A stretch of DNA of 22,123 bases from a virus, in the IMG/VR virus record IMGVR_UViG_3300024343_000126, positions 1 to 22,123 of that record; one strand, written 5' to 3'. The position numbers and the translations under genes were made by a program. The notes beneath the pieces are model-generated. The model made no database searches, was not told the DNA's origin, and saw only the letters and a list, made by a program, of their open reading frames with translations. Below, in pieces: positions 1 to 17,173 of this stretch; position 1 is the stretch's first letter; the number at the start of each line of letters is the position of its first letter.

Positions 1-11
1 GTCTAAACATA

Positions 12-105
12 TTGCCCTTGAAAGAGGGCATTATTTTAATAGCCTTCACAAGAGGGTTATTAAAGTAATTGGTGCAATGTCGCACCGCAAAGGGGAGAGA
101 ACCCC
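12..105 (+). promoter_or_regulatory. Hairpin-rich 5' leader upstream of the first gene
   Basis: Four hairpins follow one another in 94 bases. TGCCCT/AGGGCA (13-18 with 25-30, 6-nt loop) is followed by TTATTTT and resembles an intrinsic terminator. AATAGCC/GGTTATT (38-44 with 55-61, one G-U pair) comes next, then GGTGC/GCACC (71-75 with 82-86), then GGGG/CCCC (92-95 with 102-105). The last ends directly before the Shine-Dalgarno AAAGGAG of the gene at 120. A possible sigma70-like promoter, TTGCCC (12-17), a 17-nt spacer and TTTAAT (35-40), overlaps the first hairpin. It is a weak match and cannot be separated from the terminator reading. The leader may terminate upstream transcription, stabilise the 5' end of the downstream message, or both. 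Confidence 0.5.
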
Positions 106-119
106 AAAGGAGAAATAGC

Positions 120-398
120 ATGAACAACACAACCGAAAAAACTCTTTTTGTTGTTAGTCATTATACGCCTTTAGGCAAGCAGGAGGCTGAGTTCAACAGT
201 CTTCAGGCTGCCTATAAGGCTGCTAAAGGGCTGTCTCGTTTCTTGAGATCGTCGGAAAGTCGAGTATGGATACACCAGAGGGGCTTTAACGGGGTTGTTT
301 TCATGGACCCTGGAACAGTCACTCGCAGTTGGTGTGGTGGCGGTAGCCATTGGGTTGGTCAGTACAGTTGTGGTCTTAACTCAGTCCATTCAATTTAA
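120..398 (+). CDS. Small hypothetical early-type phage protein (92 aa)
   Basis: I do not recognise this protein. The ATG at 120 is chosen because AAAGGAG lies 6-7 bases upstream; the reading frame extends back to 69 without ribosome binding support. The first 60 or so residues look like a normal compact protein, including a helical stretch around residues 27-42 and the segment VWIHQRGFNGVVF. The last 30 residues are rich in Gly, Ser, Cys and Trp and look unlike coding sequence. Over the same bases the +1 frame encodes a strongly hydrophobic segment. This suggests either an overlapping small membrane-protein gene or a frameshift. It is the first of a run of small genes that ends at the RNA polymerase. 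Confidence 0.65.
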   Translation: MNNTTEKTLFVVSHYTPLGKQEAEFNSLQAAYKAAKGLSRFLRSSESRVWIHQRGFNGVVFMDPGTVTRSWCGGGSHWVGQYSCGLNSVHSI

Positions 399-408
399 GG
401 AGAATTAT

Positions 409-618
409 ATGAATGTTAACTACAGACATTCTGGTGATGATTTTGTCATCAAGAACGCTGCTGTGCTTAGTGCACACCGTGCTCAATTCCGTTCAGACGA
501 ACGGGAACTTGTTGTAAGACGCCTCCGGTTTAACCGGTGGGTTGTCGTGGATGGCGGGTCCACATACCACTACAGGTATGAGAATGGGGAGGCCTCCCCT
601 GATTTTGGAGGGTATTGA
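409..618 (+). CDS. Small hypothetical protein (69 aa), possibly with an upstream membrane-anchored form
   Basis: Translation from ATG 409 is supported by TAAGGAG 7-12 bases upstream, which overlaps the stop codon of the preceding gene. The product is a 69-residue soluble protein rich in Arg and Tyr with no family I recognise. The frame stays open upstream to 247, and a TTG at 295 would give a 107-residue form. That form would begin with a transmembrane segment, roughly AVGVVAVAIGLVSTVVVL, before the soluble part. No strong ribosome site precedes 295 (GAGGGG ends about 11 bases upstream). The longer form is therefore possible but unproven, and 409 is the better-supported start. Confidence 0.6.
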   Translation: MNVNYRHSGDDFVIKNAAVLSAHRAQFRSDERELVVRRLRFNRWVVVDGGSTYHYRYENGEASPDFGGY

Positions 619-619
619 C

Positions 620-1015
620 ATGAATATTCAGCTTTTCACTCACCGGTTAGCTGGTGGTGCTCATTTTGAGCATGACTGTGATCGGTGTTTATTTCTTGGC
701 CATTACGATGGCTATGATTTATATGCGTGCTCTGACACGCTAATAGCCCGGTATGGGCTTGATGGTGATTACATCTCTGGGGCATGTTTTGCTCCATCGG
801 TGGAACCACTTTATGTGGCCTACCTCGCTCTTTGCGATATGGCCATGCTTAACGAGCATTTAATTGCTCTTAGGGATCGTCTGTTCACTGATAATAGGTA
901 TGACAAACCTATTTTGGTGGGCAGTGACAATGGGTCTTACATGACCCTACCACTTACCCAAAATTGGGTCGCTACGGATCTTCAGGCAATAGCCTGTAGC
1001 TCTGCTTACCGTTAA
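620..1015 (+). CDS. Hypothetical phage protein with Cys/His cluster (131 aa)
   Basis: ATG 620 follows the previous stop by one base, with GGAGGG about 8 bases upstream. Earlier in-frame ATG codons at 542 and nearby lie inside the preceding gene and lack a ribosome site. The N-terminal third carries His18-x-Cys20-x2-Cys23 and Cys37 in the context HDCDRCLFLGHYDGYDLYAC, which could bind a metal. The remainder has no recognisable domain, and no membrane segment or signal peptide is evident. It sits in the operon-like run of small genes ahead of the RNA polymerase. The function is unknown. Confidence 0.7.
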   Translation: MNIQLFTHRLAGGAHFEHDCDRCLFLGHYDGYDLYACSDTLIARYGLDGDYISGACFAPSVEPLYVAYLALCDMAMLNEHLIALRDRLFTDNRYDKPILVGSDNGSYMTLPLTQNWVATDLQAIACSSAYR

Positions 1016-1027
1016 ATGGAGAATTTT

Positions 1028-1540
1028 ATGAAAATTGCAGTAAAAGGATATAACGGATTTCGTGGCTGTCCTGAATTTGCCGTTGATTTCGGGCTTATTG
1101 AGTTTAATGAGCCAATCATCACTGAGTTGACTAACGACTCAGCGGCCTATATGGCCTTCAGCAAGGACAGCAATGTTCTTGAGTATCGCCTTCTTCGCCG
1201 CAAGGCGGAGGATGGCAACACCCATTATGGGTATAGTGAGGGTGGCTATCTATCTGGCTGGAGTAGTCGCGTCAGCGTGATGAATAATCTCTTCGGCATC
1301 AAGTTTGTAGAGGCGTACCCTTATGGTATACGCCTCATAGCATTCCTTGAGCTTATCGACAGATCCTACAAAGGGTCTGTTGCGGTTCGCTTTGAAGCGT
1401 TCAGCGAGGAGGACATGGATTACACTGTGCTTCCTTATGACCACAAGTGCACCTATGACGATAGCTATTCAATTATTGATTGCGGCAATCCTGGCTGGAT
1501 TGATCGTGCCTACCTAGCATTAACTGGAGAAGTATTATGA
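1028..1540 (+). CDS. Hypothetical phage protein (170 aa)
   Basis: The protein is soluble and rich in Tyr, Gly and acidic residues, with no family I recognise. ATG 1028 is preferred over the in-frame ATG at 1016 because GGAGA (1018-1022) is well placed for 1028, whereas 1016 directly abuts the previous stop. The gene overlaps the next one by ATGA at 1537-1540, which suggests translational coupling. Two Cys residues in the last 40 residues are not arranged as a clear metal site. The function is unknown. Confidence 0.7.
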   Translation: MKIAVKGYNGFRGCPEFAVDFGLIEFNEPIITELTNDSAAYMAFSKDSNVLEYRLLRRKAEDGNTHYGYSEGGYLSGWSSRVSVMNNLFGIKFVEAYPYGIRLIAFLELIDRSYKGSVAVRFEAFSEEDMDYTVLPYDHKCTYDDSYSIIDCGNPGWIDRAYLALTGEVL

Positions 1541-1995
1541 TAAATTTTAACGCTGTGCCACTTGAAGAGCAGCTCATTGCTGTTCCCTATATCCGTCAGT
1601 CAGGTGCTGACGGGTTTGTACAAGCCCTCACTGCCCATGATGAGGTTTCTGTTCCAGAGGCTTTCATCTGGGCTGATGCACTTATTGAGGGCAATACCCT
1701 CGATAATGGCAAGTGGCGAAAGCTACTGCCGCACGAAGGCGTTGTCTTTATTCTTGACGGGCGCATGTGTGTGCCTGTAGTTGAGCCTGAAGGTCGGGTT
1801 CTTAACATGGTTTACCATTCGGTAGACCCGCAAGAAAGTATTGAATTCATCTGTCGGAGAGCTACCGGCTTTCTCGACACAATACATATTTGGCCTGATG
1901 GGAGCTACTGCCTTCCATCGGAGGAGTCTCTTGAAGAGGCGCTTACCTACCGGTCAGACGATTTTGTAACTTATGAGGAGGTACCTTATGCCTAA
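1537..1995 (+). CDS. Hypothetical phage protein (152 aa)
   Basis: The start overlaps the upstream stop (ATGA) and has GGAGAAG 5-11 bases upstream, inside the preceding coding sequence. The protein is acidic and soluble with no membrane segment. I do not recognise a domain. The C-terminal 40 residues are dominated by Glu, Asp, Ser and Tyr. Its last codons overlap the start of the next gene at 1988. It belongs to the coupled run of small genes before the RNA polymerase. Confidence 0.7.
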   Translation: MINFNAVPLEEQLIAVPYIRQSGADGFVQALTAHDEVSVPEAFIWADALIEGNTLDNGKWRKLLPHEGVVFILDGRMCVPVVEPEGRVLNMVYHSVDPQESIEFICRRATGFLDTIHIWPDGSYCLPSEESLEEALTYRSDDFVTYEEVPYA

Positions 1996-2212
1996 AAGGC
2001 TAAACATTGGTGACCTTGTTACCGCAGAGGGCGGTGATGAGGTTTTCAGCGTGACGCAAGTCCTGGCCAATTGGTCTGGCAGCCGTCACCAGCGAGCTAC
2101 TGAGGTTCACTACATAGTGGCTTGCAAGATCAAAAATGGGGTAGTCCTAAAGCGTGTTGAGCGCTTTCGTGGCTACAACTGGGTTCACGTCCCAAAAAGG
2201 AGAAGATCGTGA
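1988..2212 (+). CDS. Small basic hypothetical protein (74 aa)
   Basis: ATG 1988 is chosen over an in-frame ATG at 1973 because GAGGAGG lies just upstream of it. The product is strongly basic, begins MPKRLNIGDLV and ends in the cluster PKRRR, with a short beta-rich middle. The opening resembles small SH3-like or KOW-type folds that start near a 'GDLV' turn and often bind nucleic acid, but this is only a visual resemblance. It overlaps both neighbours, by 8 bases upstream and by GTGA downstream. Confidence 0.65.
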   Translation: MPKRLNIGDLVTAEGGDEVFSVTQVLANWSGSRHQRATEVHYIVACKIKNGVVLKRVERFRGYNWVHVPKRRRS

Positions 2213-2331
2213 GTAATGATGATCTTTTAATGGTAGCTGCACTGGCTGCGCTCATAAATTTATTTGGAGCCCTTTTTAATATTAGGGCTGACCGCCTTAA
2301 GAATGAGGTATCAAAAAATGAAGATAATTGA
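2209..2331 (+). CDS. Single-pass membrane micro-protein (40 aa)
   Basis: A GTG start at 2209 overlaps the preceding stop (GTGA) and is preceded by AAAAAGGAGAAG. The 40-residue product has a short acidic N-terminus and a hydrophobic segment from about residue 6 to 24 (LLMVAALAALINLFGALF). A charged tail rich in Asn, Lys, Glu and Asp follows. It is most likely an inner-membrane protein with the tail in the cytoplasm. The function is unknown; small membrane proteins of this kind are common in early phage operons. The end overlaps the start of the next gene by 14 bases. Confidence 0.65.
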   Translation: MSNDDLLMVAALAALINLFGALFNIRADRLKNEVSKNEDN

Positions 2332-2593
2332 AGATGAAGGCACTTATGTGATCGAGGTCACAGAGTACGAACCATTTATCCCTGCTATTACTGGCAGAGA
2401 TCCTTTGGATTGTGAGGAAGCTCAGTATGAGACTGTCGAGTATTCCATTGTTGAATTTATTCCTAGCAGTCCAGAGGATTGGACCGGCTCTGGTGTTGAT
2501 TGGGAATACCACGGTGAGTGGGATGAGGAAATGAGGGATGAAGATTACTTCCATGATGAAGTGATCGATCATTGTCGTAACGAGTCACTTTAA
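2318..2593 (+). CDS. Very acidic small protein (91 aa)
   Basis: ATG 2318 is selected because GAGG lies about 8 bases upstream and inside the preceding gene; longer in-frame starts would overlap that gene heavily. About 28 of 91 residues are Asp or Glu against about 4 Lys or Arg, a net charge near -24 spread along the whole chain. Aromatic residues are also frequent. Known phage proteins with such composition include DNA mimics such as T7 Ocr, but I see no specific sequence match. It lies directly upstream of the RNA polymerase gene and would be made before or with it. Confidence 0.7.
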   Translation: MKIIEDEGTYVIEVTEYEPFIPAITGRDPLDCEEAQYETVEYSIVEFIPSSPEDWTGSGVDWEYHGEWDEEMRDEDYFHDEVIDHCRNESL

Positions 2594-2598
2594 CTTTA

Positions 2599-2620
2599 AT
2601 AGTATAGGAGAATATACTAT
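2599..2620 (+). promoter_or_regulatory. Hairpin with Shine-Dalgarno in loop at RNA polymerase start codon
   Basis: A perfect 8-bp inverted repeat pairs 2599-2606 with 2613-2620. The six-base loop GGAGAA (2607-2612) is the Shine-Dalgarno of the RNA polymerase gene. The first two bases of its ATG (2619-2620) lie in the stem. In RNA this displays the ribosome site while occluding the start codon, which could tune or gate translation. Confidence 0.65.
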
Positions 2621-4724
2621 GAACACTATTAGTAAACTAAACTATGCGTCAGTTTCTGACGCTTACGCAGCTTGTGAAGATTACATGGCTGCCAAAGGCA
2701 AGCCTGTCGACCTAGTTCCACAGGTTGCACACAAATTAATGCTAAACCAACAGTTCTGGGCTGTTAACTCCAAGCGGATTGATCGTATCGTTACCGGTAT
2801 GAAATCTAAGAACGATGAACTTCTTCAAGAAGCTACCATCGGCAAGCTTGCTGTTAAGCTTCAGTCTATCAAGATACCCAATCAAGGCTACGACCGGGAC
2901 TTCCATGAAGCTGCCTGTAAGCTCTTCCGCATGTCTAACTTCGACAAAGTTCATGTCCGTTACACCATGGCTGGCATATTGCTTCGCATTATGGTGGCCA
3001 ACGGTGTTGTTAAGGAACGTGTTGAGTTTAAGCAGGCGTTTAATGCTCACACTAAGAGGAGCTTCAAGAAGGCACATACCTATGTTGTCTTCGGTGGTGT
3101 TAGTGAACGACCTTCTGTTCTTAGAGGGTTCGAGTCTGCGCCAGGGGTGGTGCTGTCTAAGCACAACGGTCCTTACCGCATTAAGCCTGAGCTCATCTCG
3201 CTTCTTGGTGAGATGTCTTCACAGAAGTTTAAGCTTTCGGACTTATATAGCCGTGAGCGCATGCTTCACTTTTACAGAGGGTCGACTCTTTATCATTCGG
3301 AGTCAAAGGACATCAAGGGTCGCGTAGTTGAAGGGCGTGTTAAACGCCACACACGCTTCGAGATGGACTATTTGGATGGTATGGACAAGTTAGCCGCTCT
3401 TGATGGCTATTACCTTCCTGTGCACCCTGACAGCCGCCTGAGACTGTCTTACAGCACTGCGTTGTATGGCGCCAGGATTCATGGCAAGGCGTTTGAGACA
3501 GCCATGCACGATGCCTACGAGGCCCGTGTCTACGGACCGTCTGCTATTGATGTGTGTAAGCACATTATTGTGGACATTCGTTATGGCAAAATGTCTCAGA
3601 AAGAGGCTGTTGCTAAGTTCTGTGCTAAGGATCTGACTTGGGCTCTCGCCCAAGATCCTTTGAATGTGGCTCTGCCTGATGTTAAGTACAGTGCAGCTAC
3701 CAAACCAACCTTCGAGAAATTTGAGAAGGATTGCTCTGAGGCACTTGTGGCTCTAAAGGCTGCTCGCTGTATCCAGATGACTAAGGCAGGTGAACCCTGC
3801 TCTTATATGTTTGGTCAGGACTTAACCAACTCAGGTTTACTGATGTTGGGCAACTCCAGCCGTTCTCCGCAGATGTTGGCTGCGGTTAACGTGATGGGTG
3901 AGTCTACTGTCAGGGATTCTCATACCGTAACAGGTACTGGCCTTGGCATTATGAGTCTGGGCAGACAAGCGGTTAAGTTGATCTCAACACCGCTGTTCCA
4001 CGGAGCTGGTTACTCAACGATAGCTAAGAAAATGCTTGAAGTTGGTGTTCCAGAGGAGTTCTGCACTGAAGAGTATGTTGATGATCACCTTATAGCTACC
4101 TATGGCTATGAGATCGACAATATTCAATCTATTACCCAATGGGGTCGTAAGGTTGTCAACAACTACCAGAACATTCTTAAATGGAAGACTTTGGATGGCC
4201 ATACAGCCTTCCACCAGTCGACTATGGAGAGAACTCCGTTCTCGGTATGTGTTGCTATGCCTGGATGGCAAAACAGCTCTAAGAAGGACCCAGTGCCTTT
4301 CAAGTACTATAACATTATAGCTACCATGCCTTATGCGGAGGATAAGTCTGGGTATGCTATTTATGGCAAGGATAACGTTACACCTGAAAGTCCTAAAGGT
4401 GTCTCTGTTAAGACTTATGGTTTGTTTGCCAACATCACTCACAGTCTGGATGCAACTCTGTTGCGCCGTATTGTGCAGCACCAGCTGCTTAAGGGTGAGG
4501 AGATACTGGTCAAGCATGATGATTACATTGTGCGTCCTGATCAGTTTGGTGAGATCGTTCAAGTGTGCCAGAAGTTCTTCTCGGATCTTCAGAGCAAGAA
4601 TCTTTATCAGGATGCTCTTGATCAGATCGCTGCAAATCTTAAGGTTCCGGCAACTGCTCCAACATTCCGTGTTGGTAATGCACCTGACCTGACTTCACAG
4701 TCAGTTAACTTCCTGCTTCCGTAA
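2619..4724 (+). CDS. Single-subunit phage-type RNA polymerase (T7/N4-like)
   Basis: This DNA-directed RNA polymerase would transcribe phage genes from its own promoters in the cytoplasm. The whole set of single-subunit polymerase motifs is visible. A DxxGR-like element, DSRLR, is at 271-275. Motif A is DLTNSG, with catalytic Asp401 (T7 Asp537). Motif B has Arg449, Lys453 and His461-Gly462 at exactly the T7 Arg627/Lys631/Tyr639 spacing. Motif C has His608 in HSLD (T7 His784) and HDD at 633-635, with catalytic Asp634 (T7 Asp812). Three features are unusual: Tyr639 is replaced by His, the motif C Ser by Asp, and the DxxGR Gly by Leu. At 701 residues it is shorter than T7's 883, mainly in the N-terminal region. 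Its size is close to the two N4 RNAPII subunits combined (about 30 plus 40 kDa), so it may be a one-chain form of that enzyme. Confidence 0.88.
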   Translation: MNTISKLNYASVSDAYAACEDYMAAKGKPVDLVPQVAHKLMLNQQFWAVNSKRIDRIVTGMKSKNDELLQEATIGKLAVKLQSIKIPNQGYDRDFHEAACKLFRMSNFDKVHVRYTMAGILLRIMVANGVVKERVEFKQAFNAHTKRSFKKAHTYVVFGGVSERPSVLRGFESAPGVVLSKHNGPYRIKPELISLLGEMSSQKFKLSDLYSRERMLHFYRGSTLYHSESKDIKGRVVEGRVKRHTRFEMDYLDGMDKLAALDGYYLPVHPDSRLRLSYSTALYGARIHGKAFETAMHDAYEARVYGPSAIDVCKHIIVDIRYGKMSQKEAVAKFCAKDLTWALAQDPLNVALPDVKYSAATKPTFEKFEKDCSEALVALKAARCIQMTKAGEPCSYMFGQDLTNSGLLMLGNSSRSPQMLAAVNVMGESTVRDSHTVTGTGLGIMSLGRQAVKLISTPLFHGAGYSTIAKKMLEVGVPEEFCTEEYVDDHLIATYGYEIDNIQSITQWGRKVVNNYQNILKWKTLDGHTAFHQSTMERTPFSVCVAMPGWQNSSKKDPVPFKYYNIIATMPYAEDKSGYAIYGKDNVTPESPKGVSVKTYGLFANITHSLDATLLRRIVQHQLLKGEEILVKHDDYIVRPDQFGEIVQVCQKFFSDLQSKNLYQDALDQIAANLKVPATAPTFRVGNAPDLTSQSVNFLLP

Positions 4725-4761
4725 CATCTTGGCGGTAGGCTGTTATTCACTAGATCTACTT

Positions 4762-4855
4762 CCCGCATAGAATTACGGCAATCACTCTGTACTGCTCTTT
4801 ACACCACCGTTTTGGTGGTTTGAGCTTTGGTATGGAGTGAACCGTAGTTCGCGGG
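4762..4855 (+). ncRNA. Long intergenic hairpin (about 36 bp) downstream of RNA polymerase gene
   Basis: One arm, 4762-4808, folds back on 4814-4855. Successive helices are 5 bp (4762-4766/4851-4855), 9 bp (4770-4778/4842-4850), 12 bp including three G-U pairs (4782-4793/4829-4840), 4 bp (4794-4797/4822-4825) and 6 bp (4803-4808/4814-4819). They are separated by small bulges and capped by GTTTT. There is no U-tract, so this is not a standard intrinsic terminator. It resembles an RNase III processing or message-stabilising site, or a small structured RNA. Confidence 0.65.
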
Positions 4856-4963
4856 TGTGGATGGCCTTTTTAGGCCCAATCAAGGACGATTTCGTCACAC
4901 CCGATTCGACATTCTTACTTGCTCGCATACGCTCGTTTTTGCGAATAACGGCAATATCGCTGT
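4770..4963 (+). repeat. 21-nt imperfect direct repeat pair in the intergenic region
   Basis: GAATTACGGCAATCACTCTGT at 4770-4790 and a second copy at 4943-4963 match at 17 of 21 positions. The first 13 bases, GAATWACGGCAAT, differ at only one position. Both copies lie in the non-coding block between the RNA polymerase and the next gene. A promoter or operator read by the phage polymerase is possible; the first copy also forms one arm of the long hairpin. Confidence 0.5.
4852..4903 (+). promoter_or_regulatory. Alternative branched stem competing with the upstream hairpin
   Basis: CGGGTGTG (4852-4859) pairs perfectly with CACACCCG (4896-4903). Enclosed are GGCC-TTTTTA-GGCC (4863-4876) and a small GACG/CGTC hairpin (4885-4888/4893-4896, its last base competing with the outer stem). 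Bases 4852-4855 are also needed by the lowest helix of the preceding long hairpin. The two folds are therefore mutually exclusive at that point, as in an attenuator or switch. Confidence 0.5.
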
Positions 4964-4966
4964 TAT
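4945..4966 (+). promoter_or_regulatory. Hairpin upstream of the gene at 4994
   Basis: ATAACGGC (4945-4952) pairs with GCTGTTAT (4959-4966), eight pairs including one G-U, around a six-base loop AATATC. It ends 15 bases before the Shine-Dalgarno GAGGAGAAA of the gene at 4994. It overlaps the second copy of the 21-nt direct repeat. Confidence 0.5.
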
Positions 4967-4993
4967 CTAAACCTGTCTACTGAGGAGAAAATC

Positions 4994-5320
4994 ATGGACA
5001 AAAATCAGCAAGTATTAGCGGTAGCTTTCAAGCGCACTAAGCGCAAGTTAGCCCGCATCAAAGATTTGGGGATTACCCCAGATATGCCAGAAGATGCGAT
5101 TGACAAAATCGTTGTCGACCTGGCAACCGCCAAAGCCCTTGATGAGAAGGGCGACGTCAAGGACTACCTAGACGGCCAGCAATGGTACGTTGAATCCTTG
5201 ATAAAAGCGTCTGCGCTTGAAGCAGCTGACCTGTTGGAGGCCGAGTATAACGACTCGTTTGCCGACGTGGCATCGGAAGATGACATGGTCAATATGCTCG
5301 AAGCGTTTAAAGCCGCTTAA
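4994..5320 (+). CDS. Small hypothetical protein (108 aa)
   Basis: ATG 4994 has a strong GAGGAGAAA about 5 bases upstream and follows the 269-nt structured non-coding block. The protein has a lysine- and arginine-rich N-terminal helix (residues 12-23) and an acidic, Ala/Leu-rich helical C-terminal half. No membrane segment is present and I recognise no family. Its position just after the polymerase and its own strong leader suggest it is well expressed. A nucleic-acid-associated role would fit the basic N-terminus but is speculation. Confidence 0.7.
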   Translation: MDKNQQVLAVAFKRTKRKLARIKDLGITPDMPEDAIDKIVVDLATAKALDEKGDVKDYLDGQQWYVESLIKASALEAADLLEAEYNDSFADVASEDDMVNMLEAFKAA

Positions 5321-5324
5321 AGCT

Positions 5325-5401
5325 AAGGGGTCTAGCCCTGCCCGGCAACAGAAAAGGGCTCTATACCTTGATTCGACTACAACTTAATTAGGCCATCGGC
5401 C
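5325..5401 (+). promoter_or_regulatory. Structured leader of the gene at 5413
   Basis: AGCCCT (5334-5339) pairs with AGGGCT (5355-5360), flanked by AAGG (5325-5328) with CCTT (5366-5369). A second small hairpin, GGCC-ATC-GGCC, spans 5391-5401 and ends just before the Shine-Dalgarno GAGGAG. GATTCGAC at 5370-5377 also occurs at 4903-4910 in the preceding gap. The element may be a terminator, processing site or leader. Confidence 0.35.
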
Positions 5402-5412
5402 GAGGAGCTACC

Positions 5413-5901
5413 GTGGGACTAGATCAAAATTGGTTTGCGTATTCCGCCGAACCTGAACTTAGTGAGCATGATGAAGGTACTGCTGTGTTTGAAGCAGCTA
5501 AAATCCACCCAGAAGTGCTGGGTATTTTTACTGAAAACCAGGAGCTTATGCACAATCTGGTTTACAACAAATTGGTGATGAGGACTGAACTCGGTTACCA
5601 CAGAAAAGTGCCGTTTCTTCATGGATTTATGGCTAACGAGTACGCCAACACATTCTCAGGAACTGAAGGGTACGATGAAGGGTTCAACTGTACTCAGCTA
5701 TTCATTTCTAGTGACATCTTGGACAGTCTTTCTACCGAAATCGAGAGAGCTCGAAAAGGTACAAGTGTGTTTATTAACACTAAAGGCTTTTTCTTTGGTG
5801 AACACTGCCCCGAAGACGTTGACGAAGTGGAATCAGCTGTTAAGAGAGCTAGAGAAGCAATCAGCAGTGGGGCGATAGTGTCCTACTCAGCGTGGTACTG
5901 A
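5413..5901 (+). CDS. Hypothetical phage protein beginning MGLDQ (162 aa)
   Basis: A GTG start at 5413 is preceded by GAGGAG at a good distance. The opening MGLDQNWFAY resembles a widespread group of uncharacterised phage and bacterial proteins beginning MGLDxY/W; I know no assigned function. The chain is soluble and rich in Glu, Phe and Tyr, with a His-Cys pair near residue 137. The C-terminal helix has regularly spaced charged residues. It is separated by one base from the next ATG, so the downstream gene is probably translated by coupling. Confidence 0.7.
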   Translation: MGLDQNWFAYSAEPELSEHDEGTAVFEAAKIHPEVLGIFTENQELMHNLVYNKLVMRTELGYHRKVPFLHGFMANEYANTFSGTEGYDEGFNCTQLFISSDILDSLSTEIERARKGTSVFINTKGFFFGEHCPEDVDEVESAVKRAREAISSGAIVSYSAWY

Positions 5902-5902
5902 T

Positions 5903-6094
5903 ATGAACAAATTTTGGAGAATTAACTACTGGGGCTCTCATCTCGGTGGCAGAGCTATTGTTATGGCACCTACTGCCGAAGAGGCTATTGAAGCCTTAAG
6001 ACCCCAAGTTGATGAAGAAGAATTTACAGCCGTCAGCGCTGTAGAGATAGCACCTGAAAATGGTGTCTTGTACAACTGGAACGGTGATTACTAA
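5903..6094 (+). CDS. Small hypothetical protein (63 aa)
   Basis: ATG 5903 starts one base after the preceding TGA and lacks a strong ribosome site of its own, implying translational coupling. The product starts with an aromatic beta-like segment (FWRINYW). A short helix with the pattern APTAEEAIEAL follows, and the C-terminus is acidic. This arrangement is common in small phage proteins of unknown role that carry an 'A..EAxxxA' helix. I recognise no family. Confidence 0.65.
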   Translation: MNKFWRINYWGSHLGGRAIVMAPTAEEAIEALRPQVDEEEFTAVSAVEIAPENGVLYNWNGDY

Positions 6095-6106
6095 CTGGAG
6101 AAAATT

Positions 6107-6658
6107 ATGAATCCCAAAGAAACACTACCGCAGGCAGTAGCTGAGATTAAGCGGCTGCTACAAGAAAAAGCAAAAAGCACTTTCGCTTTAGCTAAAAAGC
6201 TTTATCAAGTTAAACGCATGTATGTCTGGAAACATACTTCCTACGGATCTTGGACCAACTTCTGTGAAAAAGAAGTCGACCTGTCTCCTAGCTACATTTG
6301 GCGTCTTATCACCTCTGCTGGCTATGTAGAGAAATATAGTTACACAGAAGAGGAATGTACTGAAATTCTTAACGCGATGTCCTATCCCTCGTTTGAATTT
6401 GGCTTATCCAGTATAAAGCGTCGCATATCCATTAAGAGCTTTATAAAAATCTACCGGGGACAGTATGCAAATAAAGGATATGCTGCTGCAAGCCGTGACC
6501 CGAACTTTGTATTTTACAGGTTTGCGTTGCCACTTGAACTGAGCAAAACTTTTGAAGCTGTGCTCAAAAACTATGGGCTTGTTGTCTTGGAGACTGGTCA
6601 TCGTAACCATCTCCAATCGTCAATCCAGAAGTTCTTGGAAAACGTACTGCCTGAGTAA
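6107..6658 (+). CDS. DUF3102/KorB-like putative DNA-binding protein (183 aa)
   Basis: ATG 6107 has CTGGAGAAA 6-8 bases upstream. Residues 8-75 form a long helical region followed by a helix-turn-helix-like stretch, SWTNFCEKEVDLSPSYIWRL. It is similar in pattern to DUF3102 and KorB/ParB-type domains that bind DNA in plasmids and phages. The second half is basic and Tyr/Phe-rich with no recognisable domain. A regulatory or DNA-binding role is likely but not certain. It lies among small unknown genes and is followed by its neighbour at 10 bases. Confidence 0.5.
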   Translation: MNPKETLPQAVAEIKRLLQEKAKSTFALAKKLYQVKRMYVWKHTSYGSWTNFCEKEVDLSPSYIWRLITSAGYVEKYSYTEEECTEILNAMSYPSFEFGLSSIKRRISIKSFIKIYRGQYANKGYAAASRDPNFVFYRFALPLELSKTFEAVLKNYGLVVLETGHRNHLQSSIQKFLENVLPE

Positions 6659-6668
6659 GGGGAAGCCT

Positions 6669-7154
6669 ATGAAAAGCCTTCATGGAAGCCTCACAAAGTC
6701 CCAGATGAAGCGTTTAAACCAATTGGCACTAGATATAGGTCTGGTGTCTGATAGTCGCTGGAAAGAGGCTGCGGACGACAGTGGGGTCTATTCCGCATTC
6801 TGGATTAGGCCTGTGCCTGATAACGTTGAGAAGGTCTGGAAACAACAGCTCATGCCGAAGGGTAACCGCGAAGAGTTTCTGTCTTATTTGACAGCTCGAG
6901 CTGTGGCAATACCCCGGCAGTGGAGGGTAGACTTGGAGTTGCACTACACCAATGTGAAGGGTGAGCTCCAAGACCCTCATTTAATTGATATGAGAGCTGA
7001 AGAACCAATGCTTCTCAATGACTTCATAGAAATCTACGCGGAGTACCGCAAAGAATTGCTTGGACGGCTTGGCCCCAACGATAAGCAAGTAGCTTTTGTT
7101 TGGATTGCAACGCCCAAAGACCGTATCAGCAAGGAAAAGTGGGACAGAGCTTAA
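6669..7154 (+). CDS. Hypothetical phage protein (161 aa)
   Basis: ATG 6669 is chosen because AAGGGGAAG precedes it; the open frame extends back to 6552 but overlaps the upstream gene without ribosome support. The protein is soluble, rich in Trp and Arg, with a helical N-terminus (SQMKRLNQLALDIGL). A C-terminal segment contains QVAFVWIATPKDR. No catalytic motif is evident and I do not recognise it. It belongs to the same co-directional run as its neighbours. Confidence 0.65.
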   Translation: MKSLHGSLTKSQMKRLNQLALDIGLVSDSRWKEAADDSGVYSAFWIRPVPDNVEKVWKQQLMPKGNREEFLSYLTARAVAIPRQWRVDLELHYTNVKGELQDPHLIDMRAEEPMLLNDFIEIYAEYRKELLGRLGPNDKQVAFVWIATPKDRISKEKWDRA

Positions 7155-7165
7155 ACGGAGTAACC

Positions 7166-7453
7166 ATGAGCAAACACAGATTCGGTACATTCAGAGTTAA
7201 CACCATAGTTGCTGATCGAGAAAACATCGAAGAAATGCTTCAGCAATTGGAGTTCACACCTACTCGCATATCTAACCATGATATGCAGATGGATATTGTG
7301 TTCGTTGGGCATTCTCCGCTGTTCAAAGAAATTGAAGAAGGAGAGCCCCCAACCAGGTATACGGTCTGGGGTTCCCGCCATCACATTACTGCGTCTACAG
7401 CCTTCCGTGTGGAAGAGGTAGTCGATGAACCAAATAAGGAAGACTTCTTATGA
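7166..7453 (+). CDS. Small hypothetical protein (95 aa)
   Basis: ATG 7166 is preceded by ACGGAG. The longer open frame from 7100 overlaps the preceding gene and has no ribosome site. The protein appears to be alpha/beta, with a short N-terminal strand, the helix NIEEMLQQL and two further strands. It contains a Ser-His-His cluster near residues 70-73. There is no known family. It overlaps the next gene by ATGA at 7450-7453. Confidence 0.65.
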   Translation: MSKHRFGTFRVNTIVADRENIEEMLQQLEFTPTRISNHDMQMDIVFVGHSPLFKEIEEGEPPTRYTVWGSRHHITASTAFRVEEVVDEPNKEDFL

Positions 7454-7629
7454 CTCAAACTATTAACAATCTTCAATCTGATAAGTACGAAAATGGGTAC
7501 AAGAAAATTCAGCGTCAGGTGTCTAAAGACGTTGAAGAGTGGTTAAAAACCAATGAACCAACAATTGTACCTACTGGGCACACCACATTTCTAACTTATA
7601 GAGAAAAAAGCAACGCGAGGAAATCCTGA
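7450..7629 (+). CDS. Small hypothetical protein (59 aa)
   Basis: This short gene fills what would otherwise be a 175-base gap. ATG 7450 overlaps the preceding stop (ATGA), has AAGGAAG upstream, and the frame ends with TGA at 7627-7629. That stop overlaps the next ATG by one base (TGATG). The 59-residue product is hydrophilic, with a helix around VSKDVEEWL and a basic C-terminus (REKSNARKS). Both overlaps strongly suggest a real coupled gene. The function is unknown. Confidence 0.6.
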   Translation: MTQTINNLQSDKYENGYKKIQRQVSKDVEEWLKTNEPTIVPTGHTTFLTYREKSNARKS

Positions 7630-8114
7630 TGGCTATTCAAAAAGTAAATCAAACACAACGCAATTATGCTTTGGCACGTCTTCAAGAAGCTGCCGAGATT
7701 AACCTTTCAAGGGTTGTTTCTGAATCTGACAATAAACGTAAGCGCATTTTAGACAACGTTAATGTTAGTACTGGAACTATCATGGCTGCTGTTTCCAGCT
7801 CACTTAAGCTAGAAAAAGCCAACCTTAGAGACGTATGCCTTGAAATACGCCAAACACTGATAGCTGTTGAGGATCGGCACGAAGAGTACCTGGCCGGTGA
7901 AGCCATTGTCGTAGATGTCAAAAAACTTATTAGCGCTCCTGGTGTTAAAAGATCCTACTATGTATCACCGAAAGTTACTGTTTACAGCCAAGAAGAAGCT
8001 GAAAAAGTAAAGCTGTTGGTTGATAAAGCTGTGTCTATAAGAGATCAGATAATGCTCAGCGACGCTGATGCGTTACGGGAAACTATGGAAGAGGTAAGTC
8101 GTTACTTCGGCTAA
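7629..8114 (+). CDS. Hypothetical helical phage protein (161 aa)
   Basis: The start overlaps the preceding stop (TGATG), with GAGGAAA about 6 bases upstream. The protein is mostly helical and highly charged, with heptad-like stretches near residues 10-40 and 120-158. A short beta segment around residues 90-115 contains SYYVSPKVTVYS. It has no membrane segment and no recognised domain. It may oligomerise, judging only from the helical pattern. Confidence 0.7.
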   Translation: MAIQKVNQTQRNYALARLQEAAEINLSRVVSESDNKRKRILDNVNVSTGTIMAAVSSSLKLEKANLRDVCLEIRQTLIAVEDRHEEYLAGEAIVVDVKKLISAPGVKRSYYVSPKVTVYSQEEAEKVKLLVDKAVSIRDQIMLSDADALRETMEEVSRYFG

Positions 8115-8125
8115 TCGGAGGTTTT

Positions 8126-8821
8126 ATGGAAACTGTAAGCGTACCACTTGAAAAACTCAATAAGCTACAGGATTTACTTTCTCTTGCCTTGAGGGATAAA
8201 GAGGAAGGCGGTGTTGTGCAGATACTCGATGCTAAGGATCTTATCACCGGTATTATTTACGCCTATGAAACAGATAGTGTATTGACAGAAGAAGCAATCA
8301 GAATAAAAAAGCTTCAGCAAGATATTCTTGCTGTTGAAATCAAGAACAGAAATCTTCTAAAAATGAATGCCGAACAGGCCCAAGCTTACATCTACCTTCG
8401 AGAGAAGCTCGGAGTTGATAAGCTAGGGGCTATGGCTGCTAAAAGCGTTTATAACGTTACTGAAGATGCCTTGGACGCCCTTATCTGCAAAGTAAGGGAT
8501 ATGGAAAGTGGCCCGGCGCCTGCTGAGGCTGTGCCTAGCCCTGAGCACCGAACAACTAATGTTGGTGCGAGTGATTATGCGTCTCGTAGCATTCAGCCCT
8601 GGGACATTTGGGCAGCGTTCAGTCTTAACCCTTGGGACGCGGATATAATTAAGCGCGTGCTTAGAGTCAAGAACGAAGACAACCTCACTCCGCTAGGCGC
8701 CAGAATCCAGGATTACAAAAAGATTCGTCACGTCTGTGAGGAGCGAATCCATCAACTAGAAAATGGTGACCCGTACCATAAGAACATGCGGGTTCCGCCA
8801 TGGGTTAAAGGTAATTTATGA
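8126..8821 (+). CDS. Hypothetical protein with DUF3310-like C-terminal domain (231 aa)
   Basis: ATG 8126 has CGGAGG upstream. Residues 1-125 are helical, with a likely coiled coil around residues 50-85. A Pro/Ala-rich linker (about 128-145) joins this to a C-terminal part containing IQPWDIW and, about 20 residues later, IIKRVLRVKN. The later KIRHVCEERIHQLE helix completes a pattern seen in DUF3310 (SaV-like) phage proteins, whose biochemical role is not settled. DUF3310 proteins are usually much shorter, so the long N-terminal extension is notable. The gene overlaps the next by ATGA. Confidence 0.5.
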   Translation: METVSVPLEKLNKLQDLLSLALRDKEEGGVVQILDAKDLITGIIYAYETDSVLTEEAIRIKKLQQDILAVEIKNRNLLKMNAEQAQAYIYLREKLGVDKLGAMAAKSVYNVTEDALDALICKVRDMESGPAPAEAVPSPEHRTTNVGASDYASRSIQPWDIWAAFSLNPWDADIIKRVLRVKNEDNLTPLGARIQDYKKIRHVCEERIHQLENGDPYHKNMRVPPWVKGNL

Positions 8822-9213
8822 GTGACAAAAGCGACGCCATTTTGAGAAACATGACTGCGGAAGAGCTGATTCGTGTTGTTGAAACTACTTATAGCACTTC
8901 AGCACTGGAGAGAGTGCTGGTAGACGCGCTTAAAAAAGCTACTGACCACAGAAGCGAAAAGGTCGATCTAAACAACAATCCTTGTTACAACGTCTCGTAC
9001 TCGATGACCGCTATGGTTTCTCAGCTTTATTACCTGGAACACGATCTTTATACCGTGCATCAAGCAGATGAGCTAGATATTGACTTGGAGTGCTTCAAAG
9101 AAGTCTCCAACATATTGACTCAGGCCCAGAACAAAGTAATTAATGCGACACTTCGCTATGGAAAACGCAAGGAACAACGAGCGGTTAAACTATCTCCACA
9201 GTTTCGCTGGTAG
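8818..9213 (+). CDS. Hypothetical phage protein (131 aa)
   Basis: The start overlaps the previous stop (ATGA), with GGTAA upstream and little other ribosome-site support, so coupling is likely. The protein is helical and starts with an acidic region. A Tyr/Ser-rich middle (YNVSYSMTAMVSQLYYLEHD) and a basic C-terminus follow. I recognise no domain. The last codons, including the stop, form part of the structured element downstream at 9207-9265. Confidence 0.65.
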   Translation: MSDKSDAILRNMTAEELIRVVETTYSTSALERVLVDALKKATDHRSEKVDLNNNPCYNVSYSMTAMVSQLYYLEHDLYTVHQADELDIDLECFKEVSNILTQAQNKVINATLRYGKRKEQRAVKLSPQFRW

Positions 9214-9265
9214 GGACTACCCATCGATAAATTGCTATCAACTGCTACGGTGGACTCCCTACTGG
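9207..9265 (+). promoter_or_regulatory. Structured intergenic element with alternative hairpins
   Basis: CTGGTAGGGA (9207-9216) can pair with TCCCTACTGG (9256-9265), ten pairs including two G-U. Alternatively GGTAG-GGA-CTACC (9209-9221) forms a compact 5-bp, 3-nt-loop hairpin. The two folds share bases and exclude each other. The 5-bp/3-nt geometry resembles early promoters used by N4 virion RNA polymerase, but this is only geometric similarity. No U-tract follows. Confidence 0.4.
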
Positions 9266-9300
9266 CGTTTTATAGGAAAATTTACTAGAGGAAATTTACG

Positions 9301-9504
9301 ATGGGAAGAATGAAAGACATAGCTGACCTGGCCTACGACCTAGGTTACCAAACCGGTTTCGGCAGTTCTGATATAGTTGCAAGCCCATATCCTAGAGAAA
9401 GCGATGAAGAAGACTATTGGATTTCTGGCTGGGAGGATGGTGTCCATGACCGTGAGTTGCAGATGAAAATTAGCGACAAGCGTGTTGGAGGAGAGCTGCC
9501 GTGA
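9301..9504 (+). CDS. RMF/CrpP-fold small protein (67 aa)
   Basis: ATG 9301 has AGAGGAAA about 8 bases upstream. The chain carries the spaced pattern of the ribosome modulation factor/CrpP fold: an N-terminal AYDLGYQTGF helix-turn, then a central SPYP, then YWISGWEDGVHD. Cellular RMF inactivates 70S ribosomes by promoting 100S dimers in gammaproteobacteria. CrpP-like proteins share the fold, and phages often carry small versions of unknown role. The usual central Cys-Pro-Tyr is Ser-Pro-Tyr here. It overlaps the next gene by GTGA. A role in modifying host translation is inferred from the fold only. Confidence 0.6.
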   Translation: MGRMKDIADLAYDLGYQTGFGSSDIVASPYPRESDEEDYWISGWEDGVHDRELQMKISDKRVGGELP

Positions 9505-9617
9505 CTGAGAATGAAGCCATAGAAATACTAGTTACAATGCTGATTGTTATTTCGCTTGTATTTGTTGTTTATTCAGCATGGGATGACGAGCTTAAAGACC
9601 GTCAAAAAAACAACTAA
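9501..9617 (+). CDS. Single-pass membrane micro-protein (38 aa)
   Basis: A GTG start at 9501 overlaps the preceding stop and follows GGAGGAGAG. The 38-residue product has an acidic N-terminus and a transmembrane segment of about residues 9-25 (ILVTMLIVISLVFVVYS). A charged tail, WDDELKDRQKNN, follows. It is presumably anchored in the inner membrane. The function is unknown; a second membrane protein follows immediately at 9635. Confidence 0.65.
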   Translation: MTENEAIEILVTMLIVISLVFVVYSAWDDELKDRQKNN

Positions 9618-9634
9618 GACTGAGGAGAAAGGCG

Positions 9635-9880
9635 ATGTCTGAACCAAATATGGTAATGCTAATAGGTATTGGTCTTATCCTAGTAGTTATTATGATTACA
9701 GCTGATGCCGTAAAGCATTTTAAGGCTGAAGAAGCTTATCGTAAAACAATACAGTCTCAACAAGACGAGCTGATCAAAGTTCACAAAGTTCTTGATAAAG
9801 CCCTAGATCTGCTGATCAAGCAGGACAATGAGATTGACCGCATAACGGAAAAACTATCCAATTTTAAGGAGGGTCCATGA
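9635..9880 (+). CDS. Membrane-anchored coiled-coil protein (81 aa)
   Basis: ATG 9635 is preceded by GAGGAGAAA. An N-terminal transmembrane segment at about residues 7-24 is followed by a long charged helix with heptad spacing (residues 28-78), ending in LSNFKEGP. The topology resembles an inner-membrane spanin or another membrane-tethered coiled coil. Spanins usually sit in lysis cassettes, however, and no endolysin or holin neighbours are visible. It overlaps the next gene by ATGA. Confidence 0.6.
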   Translation: MSEPNMVMLIGIGLILVVIMITADAVKHFKAEEAYRKTIQSQQDELIKVHKVLDKALDLLIKQDNEIDRITEKLSNFKEGP

Positions 9881-10185
9881 CTGTAAAAGTGGTAAATCTA
9901 CGGCTGTCATCCAGCCCAGTGGATTTCGTGTGTGATAGAACCTCCCCGTTAGGGAATCCTTTCAACATGAAGAACTTCTCAAAGGCTGAGCGAAACCGTG
10001 TTTGTGATCTTTACGAAGAGCATTTCGCAACGTGCCTTAACCCGGACTACGCCCCGGTGGGCTTCCTGGAATACTTAGATACCATCTGCCAAGCCGCCGC
10101 TGAGCGGGACATCACTATTGGATGCCACTGTGCTCCGCAGCGCTGTCACTGTGACACCATCAAAAACTACATTGATTCAGAATAA
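9877..10185 (+). CDS. DUF4326 family protein (102 aa)
   Basis: The start overlaps the preceding stop, with AAGGAGG upstream. The protein matches the layout of DUF4326. It has an N-terminal VVNLR strand, then a RTSPLGNPF element. A helical middle region leads to the C-terminal IGCHCAPQRCHCDTI, where Cys and His residues cluster. The family is common in phages and bacteria, and its reaction is not established to my knowledge. The Cys/His cluster might bind metal. The gene closes the accessory cluster before the helicase. Confidence 0.75.
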   Translation: MTVKVVNLRLSSSPVDFVCDRTSPLGNPFNMKNFSKAERNRVCDLYEEHFATCLNPDYAPVGFLEYLDTICQAAAERDITIGCHCAPQRCHCDTIKNYIDSE

Positions 10186-10257: not shown

Positions 10258-10272
10258 CTTTTGGAAACTAAT

Positions 10273-11673
10273 ATGATTACCTACACTCCCGAACAACATG
10301 ATGTTCTTAGCCACCTTATGAACCCAGAAAACACAGGTATTACCTTGGTAAGCGCCGGGGCTGGTACTGGTAAGTCTTGGTTATCGAGACGGGTGGTTGA
10401 AGAATTGAAACCTAAACGGTGCCTGTACACAGCATTCAACAAAGCGATTGTGCAAGAGGGGGAATCCCGATTCAGAGGCACAAGTACTGAGTGCAAAACG
10501 TTGCACGCTTTGGCGTATAGCTACGTCAGACCTAAAGGTAGTATTAGCGATATTTCCTATGGCTGCATCGAAGAGGACATCAGCTATAACCTGAAATACC
10601 TGATAATTACCGGTATTAACCGCTTCTTTGTCTCCGACTCTGTGAACGCTTACGAATTTATGGAAGAGCACTTCGAGGGTGAAGACCACGAAAAAATGCT
10701 TGCCGAGCTCTCTGTTAAGTACATCGAAAAGATGGCCAATAAGGAATTGGACCCAACATTCAATTTCTTGCTCAAGTATTTTCACTTGATGCTGCATGAA
10801 GGCACGGTCACCTGCAAGTACGACTTGGTTATCCTGGATGAAATCAACGACACCACTGCCGTAGCTCTGGAGATATTTAAGCTAATAGATGCTCCGAAGA
10901 AGCTTGGCCTGGGTGAAACTCACCAAGCTATTTACGATTTTCTACATCTTGTTAATGGATTTGAATTGTTAAAGGACGCTGATCTATTTCACTTAACGCA
11001 ATCGTTTAGATGCAGTGAAGAGATCGCTGGCCGTATTGAAAAATTTATGAAATTGGATGCTGACGACACATTCAAGTTTGTCGGTACAGATGAACCGGTA
11101 AGAAATGGGAAAACTCTTGTGTGCACAAGCACCAATGCGTCAATTGTGGCGCATATTCAGGATTGCTTGGACAGAAAGAAAGGATTCCAGCTTTTACGAA
11201 AAATATCTGAAATCTTTGCCTGCCCCTTGGCAGTTACATCGGCAAGTGCCGGCAAAGCTGTTTACCAAAAAAAGTTTAAGCACTTAGAAGACGAGTACAA
11301 AAATTGGAACAACAATAGACGGCGGGGCTATTCGTATTTTCAGCACTTGCTTGATCATTTTGATGACCAAGAAACAGTTAACGCTGTTCAGCTTTTGCTC
11401 AACTTCCAAAGGAAAGGCATTAATATCTTCAGCCTATACAAAAAGGCAAAAGAGTCGAATGTTGACTTAAACTATACTATCGCTACCGTGTTCACCTCAA
11501 AAGGTTTAGAATTTGAAACCGTTTTAATATCTGACGACTTAAATACTCGTATTGCAAAAATAAGAGAGAACGGTGGTGTAAGGAACCACGACGACCTAGT
11601 AGCGTACCGTTGCTACTATGTGGCAGCAAGTCGTGCAGGAGTTAACTTGCTTAACGCAACTGCACTTTATTAA
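10273..11673 (+). CDS. SF1 DNA helicase, UvrD-like (466 aa)
   Basis: This ATP-driven helicase would unwind DNA in phage replication or recombination. Motif I is SAGAGTGKS with Lys34, followed by motif Ia-like AFNKAIV and TLHALAY. Motif II is ILDEIN with Asp189-Glu190, motif III is GETHQAIYDF, and motif IV is QSFRCSEEIA. Motif V is TSKGLEFETVL and motif VI is YVAASRA with Arg454. The DEIN box departs from the common DEAQ. At 466 residues it is compact, similar to phage and FBH1-like helicases rather than full UvrD or RecB. I prefer ATG 10273. A TTG four codons upstream is possible, and neither has a strong ribosome site, so translation may depend on the structured gap upstream. Confidence 0.88.
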   Translation: MITYTPEQHDVLSHLMNPENTGITLVSAGAGTGKSWLSRRVVEELKPKRCLYTAFNKAIVQEGESRFRGTSTECKTLHALAYSYVRPKGSISDISYGCIEEDISYNLKYLIITGINRFFVSDSVNAYEFMEEHFEGEDHEKMLAELSVKYIEKMANKELDPTFNFLLKYFHLMLHEGTVTCKYDLVILDEINDTTAVALEIFKLIDAPKKLGLGETHQAIYDFLHLVNGFELLKDADLFHLTQSFRCSEEIAGRIEKFMKLDADDTFKFVGTDEPVRNGKTLVCTSTNASIVAHIQDCLDRKKGFQLLRKISEIFACPLAVTSASAGKAVYQKKFKHLEDEYKNWNNNRRRGYSYFQHLLDHFDDQETVNAVQLLLNFQRKGINIFSLYKKAKESNVDLNYTIATVFTSKGLEFETVLISDDLNTRIAKIRENGGVRNHDDLVAYRCYYVAASRAGVNLLNATALY

Positions 11674-12712: not shown

Positions 12713-13510
12713 GTGAGACATAATAAGTTTCAGGAATGCCTAACGCTTGTTAAGGCTGGCATCCCGGTTTTACTTACTGGAGAGAAAGGCAGTGGTAAAA
12801 CTACCCTGGCTATACAGGTTGCCAAAGAACTTGATCTACCTTTCTACAGCGTGTCTATGACCCGTCAGACCACTCTGTCGTATCTTATGGGCTTTATGAA
12901 CGTAAGTGGTGCGTATGTACCATCTTTGCTTCGTAGGGCTGTTGAGGAGGGCGGTATGTACCTTCTCGATGAAATGGATGCGGGTGACCCTAACGTTCTT
13001 TTGTCGTTGAATACCATTGAGAATGGTTTCGTATCATTTCCTGACAAAATCGTGGAGTTACACCCGAATTTTCGTTTGATGGGATCTTCTAACCCAGCTC
13101 ACTTGCACGCTCATTACACTGGTCGTGCGAAACTTGACGCAGCTACCCTGGACAGATTCGATGAAATCGTCATACCTCGAGACGAGGAGCTGGAGAAATC
13201 TCTAGTGGACTCAGACACTTACGCCAATATGACTGCGCTACGAGAAGCCTTGACTGAAACAAATTCTGGAATAGTTCTGTCAATGCGTGACAGCTTGAGG
13301 TTCCAAAAACGAAAAGAATTGGGTCTTTTGGCAGGTTACTTGGAAAAGCTAACTGGCCATGAAGATTTTATCCTCAAAAAGTACAAAGAAAAACTGAAAA
13401 CAATGCCTAGGCACACAAGCCAAAGCGATTGTGAAACTATGGCAGACTTATTGCATCTGCTGAACAGTGAAAACGATACTGAATGGGAAGAAATAACCAT
13501 TTCAGCTTAG
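12713..13510 (+). CDS. MoxR-type AAA+ ATPase (265 aa)
   Basis: A GTG start at 12713 is preceded by AAGGAGG. Walker A is GEKGSGKTT (residues 23-31, Lys29) and Walker B is YLLDEMD (Asp86-Glu87). Sensor 1 is SSNP with Asn127, followed by LDAATLDRFDEIVI, which contains the arginine-finger region. The order and spacing fit the MoxR/AAA_5 group, whose members remodel partner proteins and usually pair with a vWA-domain protein encoded next door. The following gene at 13544 is such a candidate. From memory, N4-like phages carry a similar ATPase/vWA pair. The target in phage development is unknown. Confidence 0.85.
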   Translation: MRHNKFQECLTLVKAGIPVLLTGEKGSGKTTLAIQVAKELDLPFYSVSMTRQTTLSYLMGFMNVSGAYVPSLLRRAVEEGGMYLLDEMDAGDPNVLLSLNTIENGFVSFPDKIVELHPNFRLMGSSNPAHLHAHYTGRAKLDAATLDRFDEIVIPRDEELEKSLVDSDTYANMTALREALTETNSGIVLSMRDSLRFQKRKELGLLAGYLEKLTGHEDFILKKYKEKLKTMPRHTSQSDCETMADLLHLLNSENDTEWEEITISA

Positions 13511-13543
13511 CAGTGTGCCAACTAGACCTTAAGGAGGTTAAAG

Positions 13544-16569: not shown

Positions 16570-16581
16570 GAGGTTTAGACT

Positions 16582-16977: not shown

Positions 16978-16983
16978 CAAATT

Positions 16984-17061
16984 TGCTTCACTTAGCAAAG
17001 TAATTGTCTACGTGAGTCCTAAAGGCCTGGGCTATTGATAAAGCACCGCATAAGTGAAGCA
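16984..17061 (+). promoter_or_regulatory. Long-range stem enclosing two small arms (first half of gap)
   Basis: TGCTTCACTTA (16984-16994) pairs perfectly with TAAGTGAAGCA (17051-17061). Inside are GTA/TAC (17000-17002/17009-17011) and AGTCC/GGGCT (17015-17019/17029-17033, one G-U). This gives a cloverleaf-like outline ending in GCAGCCA, but it lacks a T-arm and anticodon stem. It may be a processing or regulatory RNA, or a replication signal. Confidence 0.45.
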
Positions 17062-17069
17062 GCCATATT

Positions 17070-17155: not shown

Positions 17156-17173
17156 GCACTATTAGGAGGTTTA

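Follow-up and report, generated by a model that had tools for sequence, protein, structure and literature searches.

The window analysed here, a 22,123-base IMG/VR virus fragment (22 kb), carries in its replication region a gene for a single-subunit RNA polymerase of the T7/N4 type, and the phage, a marine one, is a schitovirus of the V19/R22Y type. The enzyme is ordinary in its class and unusual in detail. The group of one-chain polymerases to which it belongs had not been described before, and has an invariant His at the position of T7 Tyr639. The explanation that we consider best, and probable as a whole, is that it is a one-chain enzyme of the N4 RNAPII kind that is competent in DNA-dependent RNA synthesis and keeps its preference for ribose via His461. 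Coordinates are collected in Table 1.

Table 1. Features of the window and homologues of its small downstream protein; positions are those of the window unless a genome or contig is named.
Feature	Position	Strand	Basis or remark
Ribosome-binding site AGGAG, 8 nt ahead of ATG	2606-2610	+	direct reading of sequence
One-chain RNA polymerase gene, 701 aa	2619-4724	+	intact ORF; PHROG, profile and fold matches; 9-member family
DxxGR-like element DSRLR, residues 271-275; Arg275 = T7 Arg425	3429-3443	+	profile alignment to N4 RNAP1 and T7
Motif A FGQDLTNSG, residues 398-406; Asp401 = T7 Asp537, Gly406 = T7 Gly542	3810-3836	+	T7 alignment
Motif B RQAVKLISTPLFHG, residues 449-462; His461 (3999-4001) at T7 Tyr639 position	3963-4004	+	R, K, H, G invariant in nine one-chain enzymes
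ANITHSLD, residues 604-611; His608 = T7 His784	4428-4451	+	T7 alignment
Motif C KHDD, residues 632-635; Asp634 = T7 Asp812, Lys632 at T7 Ile810 position	4512-4523	+	alignment
Small protein, 108 aa, acidic, family unassigned	4994-5320	+	directly downstream of polymerase; candidate cofactor
DNA helicase	10261-11673	+	PHROG 1967; gene order as V19
MoxR-type AAA ATPase, N4 gp24-like position	12713-13510	+	PF07728, PHROG 249
DNA primase	14365-16569	+	PHROG 2135, E 1e-80
GIY-YIG (SegE-type) endonuclease	16582-16977		between primase and exonuclease genes
Family A DNA polymerase; motif A DLSALE with steric-gate Glu	17820-19592	+	PHROG 23226
Single-strand DNA-binding protein, cut by window end	21630-22121	+	PHROG 743
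Small-protein homologue	L003 5788-6129
Small-protein homologue	L002 4421-4783
Small-protein homologue	L022 2360-2851	-
Small-protein homologue	L064 4556-4912
Small-protein homologue	L020 11673-11990	-
Small-protein homologue	L063 427-744	-
Small-protein homologue	G009 44716-45036
Small-protein homologue	G010 3586-3900

The open reading frame is real and intact, with a good ribosome-binding site. Its product matched two PHROG families annotated as RNA polymerase, PHROG 2051 (E 9e-11) and PHROG 414 (E 2e-5), and in a profile-profile comparison (hhalign) it matched N4 RNAP2 with an E value of 5.2e-20 over 281 columns. The Pfam RNA_pol profile (PF00940) scored 15.7 bits over residues 601-675, below its gathering score of 22 bits. 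A phmmer search of the PDB with the single polymerase sequence returned a chance match only, although the profile does recover N4 RNAP2. In an AlphaFold2 model made with eight family sequences, pLDDT was about 80-95 across the greater part of residues 290-535 and 600-698; it was poor over most of residues 1-290, and mostly below 50 in the first 250. The best match of the model to a solved structure was gp16 of N4 RNAPII (6dt7_B, Z 22.6, 303 residues), with model residues 307-700 superposing on gp16 residues 4-404; the yeast mitochondrial and T7 RNA polymerases came next (Z about 21), and family A DNA polymerases scored 12.6. The core of the enzyme is predicted to have the palm/fingers fold of single-subunit RNA polymerases, and the gp16-like palm and fingers proposed in the preliminary description were upheld by both the profile and the fold comparison. 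Chance is ruled out for the identity of the polymerase because of the PHROG, profile-profile and AlphaFold core matches. We place it as a variant within the T7-like superfamily on its fold and remaining motifs, despite the His, the DSRLR element and the PF00940 score.

In tblastn searches of 50,697 phage records, the only full-length relatives were those of the Alteromonas phages V19 (OP751378, WAK44711.1) and R22Y (PP212876, gp93), which are 27-28% identical; RNAP2 of phage A5 matched in part. Further relatives came from scanning IMG/VR with degenerate DNA patterns drawn from conserved stretches other than motif B; hand-made motif patterns were productive, and automatic locus searches yielded little. 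Together there are nine distinct one-chain enzymes (the window, V19, R22Y, L020, L022, L061/G009, L062/G010, L063/G012 and L064/G011), with pairwise identities of 22-64% (median 28). In a tree of 309 columns these nine form one clade (support 100/99.9), apart from both the split N4-type group (94/91) and the T7-like group (97/95); the tree was rooted on the T7-like group, with no outside root, and does not give the branching order of the three groups. The pattern scan gave no match to the family in bacterial or archaeal genome contigs. No member was found in phage AD45-P1, whose DNA polymerase is 43% identical to that of the window, or in contig G001. The AD45-P1 protein P0005 (669 aa) is of similar length but shows none of the polymerase motifs. 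The polymerases of V19 and R22Y are annotated simply as RNA polymerase; they share with that of the window the single chain, the His, KHDD, the small downstream gene and the gene order, but their DxxGR element reads SGSGR. Their single chain and His pass without remark, the available portion of the R22Y paper noting two RNA polymerase genes only (PMC11705849), and we found no paper that discusses the downstream neighbour of this polymerase, its His or its being one chain.

The residues that the preliminary description had assigned to motifs A and B were found as described. Both metal-binding Asp residues of the superfamily are present (D401 in motif A and D634 in motif C), and R449, K453 and H461 form R-x3-K-x7-H at exactly the spacing of T7 R627, K631 and Y639. 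The superfamily motif R-x3-K-x7-Y is thus altered in one residue, with Arg and Lys kept and Tyr replaced by His in nine of nine members, in all of which motif B reads R-x3-K-x7-H-G. By comparison, the alignment shows Tyr to be kept in all 13 split N4-type RNAP2 proteins, in a one-chain enzyme from contig L049 and in six of six T7-like RNA polymerases. The five virion RNA polymerases compared (N4, V19, R22Y, G009 and G005) also have Tyr, so that a Tyr enzyme and a His enzyme occur together in each of the genomes of V19, R22Y, G009 and G005. His461 did not arise from a sequencing error or a frameshift, since nine distinct members, the window included, have it and were found by seed patterns that did not contain position 461. 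A scan of IMG/VR with the pattern K-R-x-V-M-T-x-x-H-G gave eight matches, none in an RNA polymerase, a weak comparison that had no Tyr-version control.

A second change lies in motif C, and was overlooked in the earlier emphasis on altered residues there. Eight read-through members of the one-chain group, together with the second exon of the L063 gene, have K-H-D-[D/N], whereas Ile or Val stands ahead of HD in all 20 other aligned enzymes (13 split RNAP2, L049 and six T7-like). Motif C of the window enzyme is K632-H633-D634-D635; Asp634 had been placed in it correctly, and His608, which had been given the same label, is the equivalent of T7 His784. The HDD in place of HDS is there as described, but it is not an unusual feature: normal enzymes have S, D, E, C or A as the third residue, and HDD also occurs in two T7-like polymerases, those of Alfirin and XAJ24 phages. 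Similarly, the DxxGR-like element is present and departs from the superfamily motif, and it is degenerate across the whole group (DSRLR, DHRLR, DYRTR, SGSGR and CGRDR), with only the Arg invariant; in T7 such degeneracy would be expected to affect contacts to template and RNA. The changes of importance are His461 and the Lys632 ahead of HD.

The genes of the window follow much the order of those in V19 (polymerase, small gene, helicase, MoxR ATPase, a further gene, primase and DNA polymerase), and its DNA polymerase is 61% identical to that of V19 and 58% to that of R22Y. The papers that describe V19 and R22Y class both as schitoviruses (PMC10579305, PMC11705849), and the window phage lies in this Alteromonas branch of the N4-like phages. 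Identity to V19 is 27% for the RNA polymerase and 61% for the DNA polymerase, so that the former is diverging much faster. The window, a fragment of 22 kb, includes no virion RNA polymerase of its own, and what is said of that enzyme comes from relatives, which encode proteins of about 2,080-2,140 aa (V19 32493-38741, R22Y 32041-38289, G009 13292-19501 and G005 28605-35015); these are about 2,090 aa in the window's relatives compared with 3,500 in N4. The G005 protein appears to have Gln for the His of motif C (IQDA).

Schitoviridae are described as having three RNA polymerase genes (PMC7650795), but V19 and R22Y have two. The R22Y paper notes two, and the missing subunit is not remarked on in the portion of its text available (PMC11705849). 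A profile of six RNAP1 proteins matched nothing in the window, V19, R22Y, G005 or G006, while the positive controls N4 and A5 were matched; no separate RNAP1 gene having been found, we conclude that the one-chain polymerase replaces both subunits. In a 2015 survey of 26 virion RNA polymerase homologues, all but two of the phages also had a heterodimeric RNAPII (PMC4496689). V19, R22Y, G009 and G005 have a virion RNA polymerase of ~2.1 k residues together with a one-chain enzyme, and the one-chain group therefore breaks that link and is a natural comparison for asking why the N4 enzyme is split. Searches with phmmer for the N4 cofactors gp1 and gp2, an insensitive test, gave none in the window or the V19 pieces, and likewise none in the A5 piece.

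That the enzyme is a single chain about as long as the two N4 RNAPII subunits together (701 aa compared with 269 plus 404) had been noted at the outset, with the suggestion that it is a fused form of the heterodimer, the gp15 and gp16 genes of an N4-type ancestor having been joined in this lineage. The total length fits this, as does the direct joining of the DxxGR piece to the palm and fingers with no spacer, and the part ahead of DxxGR is short like gp15 (270 residues, compared with 235 in N4 and 420 in T7). However, the N-terminal part had been expected to match gp15 as far as about residue 390, and this was true only of the DxxGR piece, which is C-terminal in gp15 and where the profile match is confined to 46-48 columns (E 2e-5). 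In profile comparison residues 1 to about 245 had no detectable match to gp15, nor were they nearer to T7, to which they also had none, and the structure match puts the gp15/gp16 border at about residue 304. Against fusion is also that the one-chain enzymes form a separate clade, not one nested within the split enzymes, in a tree that lacks an outside root. Contig L049 (72-kb, IMG/VR) encodes at 5132-6775 a 547-aa one-chain polymerase in which a DFRGR piece is joined to an N4-type RNAP2. It shares this arrangement with the window enzyme but differs in keeping Tyr and in having IHDC, and it branches beside the split group, on a long branch whose position is unsure. As this one-chain Tyr enzyme lies beside the split group, a single fission on the N4 branch is the most parsimonious account of the observations, and is as simple as fusion or simpler. 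The fused form was thus not borne out; we regard fusion as a possible but minority explanation, and a polymerase that was never split is at least as likely. In the model of the L064 polymerase, the N-terminal part resembled winged-helix proteins with Z of 6.2-6.6, a weak match below a trustworthy level.

By analogy with the transcription timing of N4 (PMC4496689), the polymerase would be an early product, its gene probably being transcribed by the giant virion RNA polymerase, and, given the gene order, would then transcribe the middle genes, which serve replication and include those of the window. A search of the window for promoter motifs by repeats and hairpins gave nothing convincing. With Asp401, Asp634 and the O helix residues Arg449 and Lys453 kept, the enzyme is expected to use NTPs. 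In T7, Arg425, Gly542, Tyr639 and His784 lie near the incoming nucleotide and have been targeted to alter sugar choice (PMC4551944); the equivalents of Arg425, Gly542 and His784, which line the ribose, are kept in the window enzyme (Arg275, Gly406 and His608), and only the Tyr is changed. The steric-gate Glu of family A DNA polymerases, five residues past the motif A Asp, is absent, the position being occupied by Gly406. Since the DNA polymerase of this same phage has that Glu, the enzyme appears to be built as an RNA polymerase. With the fold, both catalytic Asp residues and the Arg425, Gly542 and His784 equivalents kept, its sequence indicates that it should make RNA.

His461 stands at the end of the O helix in place of the Tyr that elsewhere bonds the 2'-OH and excludes dNTPs. 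Tyr639 is the discriminator of NTP against dNTP in single-subunit RNA polymerases (PMC7862312), the T7 mutants Y639F/V/L relax sugar selection (PMC4551944), and Tyr is lost throughout the one-chain group. It could be argued from this that the His enzyme, like T7 Y639F, accepts dNTPs as substrates or synthesises chains of mixed RNA and DNA, and perhaps makes primers for replication. We consider this unlikely: the phage encodes a dedicated primase, the equivalents of Gly542 and His784 are kept, Lys632 co-varies with His461, and the replacement is always His and never Phe or Val, which argues for a retained polar contact to the 2'-OH. In the preferred explanation, the 2'-OH is most likely hydrogen-bonded by the imidazole of His461 in place of the Tyr, which is conjecture, Lys632 would be a co-evolved, matching change, and the ribose preference would be retained through a different side chain. 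A Tyr-to-His change in T7 was described in no paper that we found. A natural clade with His and a co-varying Lys makes the Tyr rule for the choice between NTP and dNTP directly testable. T7 mutants at Tyr639 are the basis for making 2'-modified RNA, and the His-type polymerases are new enzymes to try with modified nucleotides.

Another origin to be weighed is that the gene was taken from a T7-like (Autographiviridae) lineage, making the product a separate T7-type polymerase that is only superfamily kin of N4 RNAPII. The profile match to T7-like polymerases (E 5.5e-20) is as strong as that to N4 RNAP2, and the enzyme shares with T7 RNA polymerase (PF00940) the single chain and the equivalents of Asp537, Arg627, Lys631, His784, Asp812, Gly542 and Arg425. 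It differs from the T7 enzyme in being ~150 residues shorter ahead of DxxGR and in having His for Tyr639 and Lys for Ile810. An origin of this kind is quite improbable in our judgement, as the length is compact and N4-like, the genome position is that of N4 RNAPII, no separate RNAPII genes were found, and the best fold match is N4 gp16, although this is nearly tied with the mitochondrial and T7 enzymes. With N4 RNAPII (the gp15/gp16 heterodimer) the enzyme shares the palm/fingers fold predicted for its core, motif order, overall size and genome position, and also, in the relatives, the co-occurrence of a virion RNA polymerase. It differs from N4 RNAPII in being one chain, in the His for Tyr and the Lys ahead of HD, in a motif C that follows the THS-D helix without an insertion, in an N-terminal part that is not detectably gp15, and in the gene that lies downstream.

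Group I introns typically occupy conserved catalytic stretches of active essential genes. A decaying or non-catalytic protein, which the altered Tyr639 and DxxGR positions and the fast divergence might bring to mind, is very improbable, because the catalytic Asp pair, Arg449, Lys453, His461, Gly462 and His608 are invariant across the family at 22-64% identity, and a group I intron in the L063 gene sits exactly in such a stretch.

The small acidic protein encoded next to the polymerase has homologues (~105 residues) downstream and on the same strand in all nine one-chain genomes, at distances of up to about 0.9 kb. No homologue was found in any of ten N4-like or related records without this polymerase (N4, A5, EcP1, PA26, 1.026.O, D270, V12, AD45-P1, the L049 contig and G001), and V19 and R22Y are its only carriers in the phage collection. 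The protein matched no family in Pfam or PHROG, and it did not resemble N4 gp1, gp2 or the other N4 early proteins tested. The simplest guess is that it is a cofactor of the polymerase, and it is probably an accessory factor. We suggest only tentatively that these enzymes are a separate polymerase class, in which the pair of His461 and Lys632 replaces Tyr-based sugar selection and the small downstream-encoded protein is an obligate partner.

Several additional observations were made on the window and its relatives. Terminator-like hairpins in positions 1-10000 of the window numbered 21, compared with 8.1 +- 3.0 in shuffles, and perfect hairpins in the whole window numbered 22, compared with 9.3 +- 3.4, mostly within genes. 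In L063 (about 1240-2300, minus strand) the polymerase gene is split at ...RGLYA|NITHS... by the group I intron (RF00028, 77.5 bits), which holds an open reading frame for a GIY-YIG-like homing endonuclease and is followed by an intact second polymerase exon. L058 (the G005 contig) has group I introns on the minus strand at 4069-4396 and 4639-4881 (68.9 and 109.4 bits) in its family A DNA polymerase gene. Lastly, a protein of the 248-kb Enterobacter phage SonariX (PQ898399.1, 195306-196544), annotated as hypothetical, matched across all of N4 RNAP2 at 33% identity.
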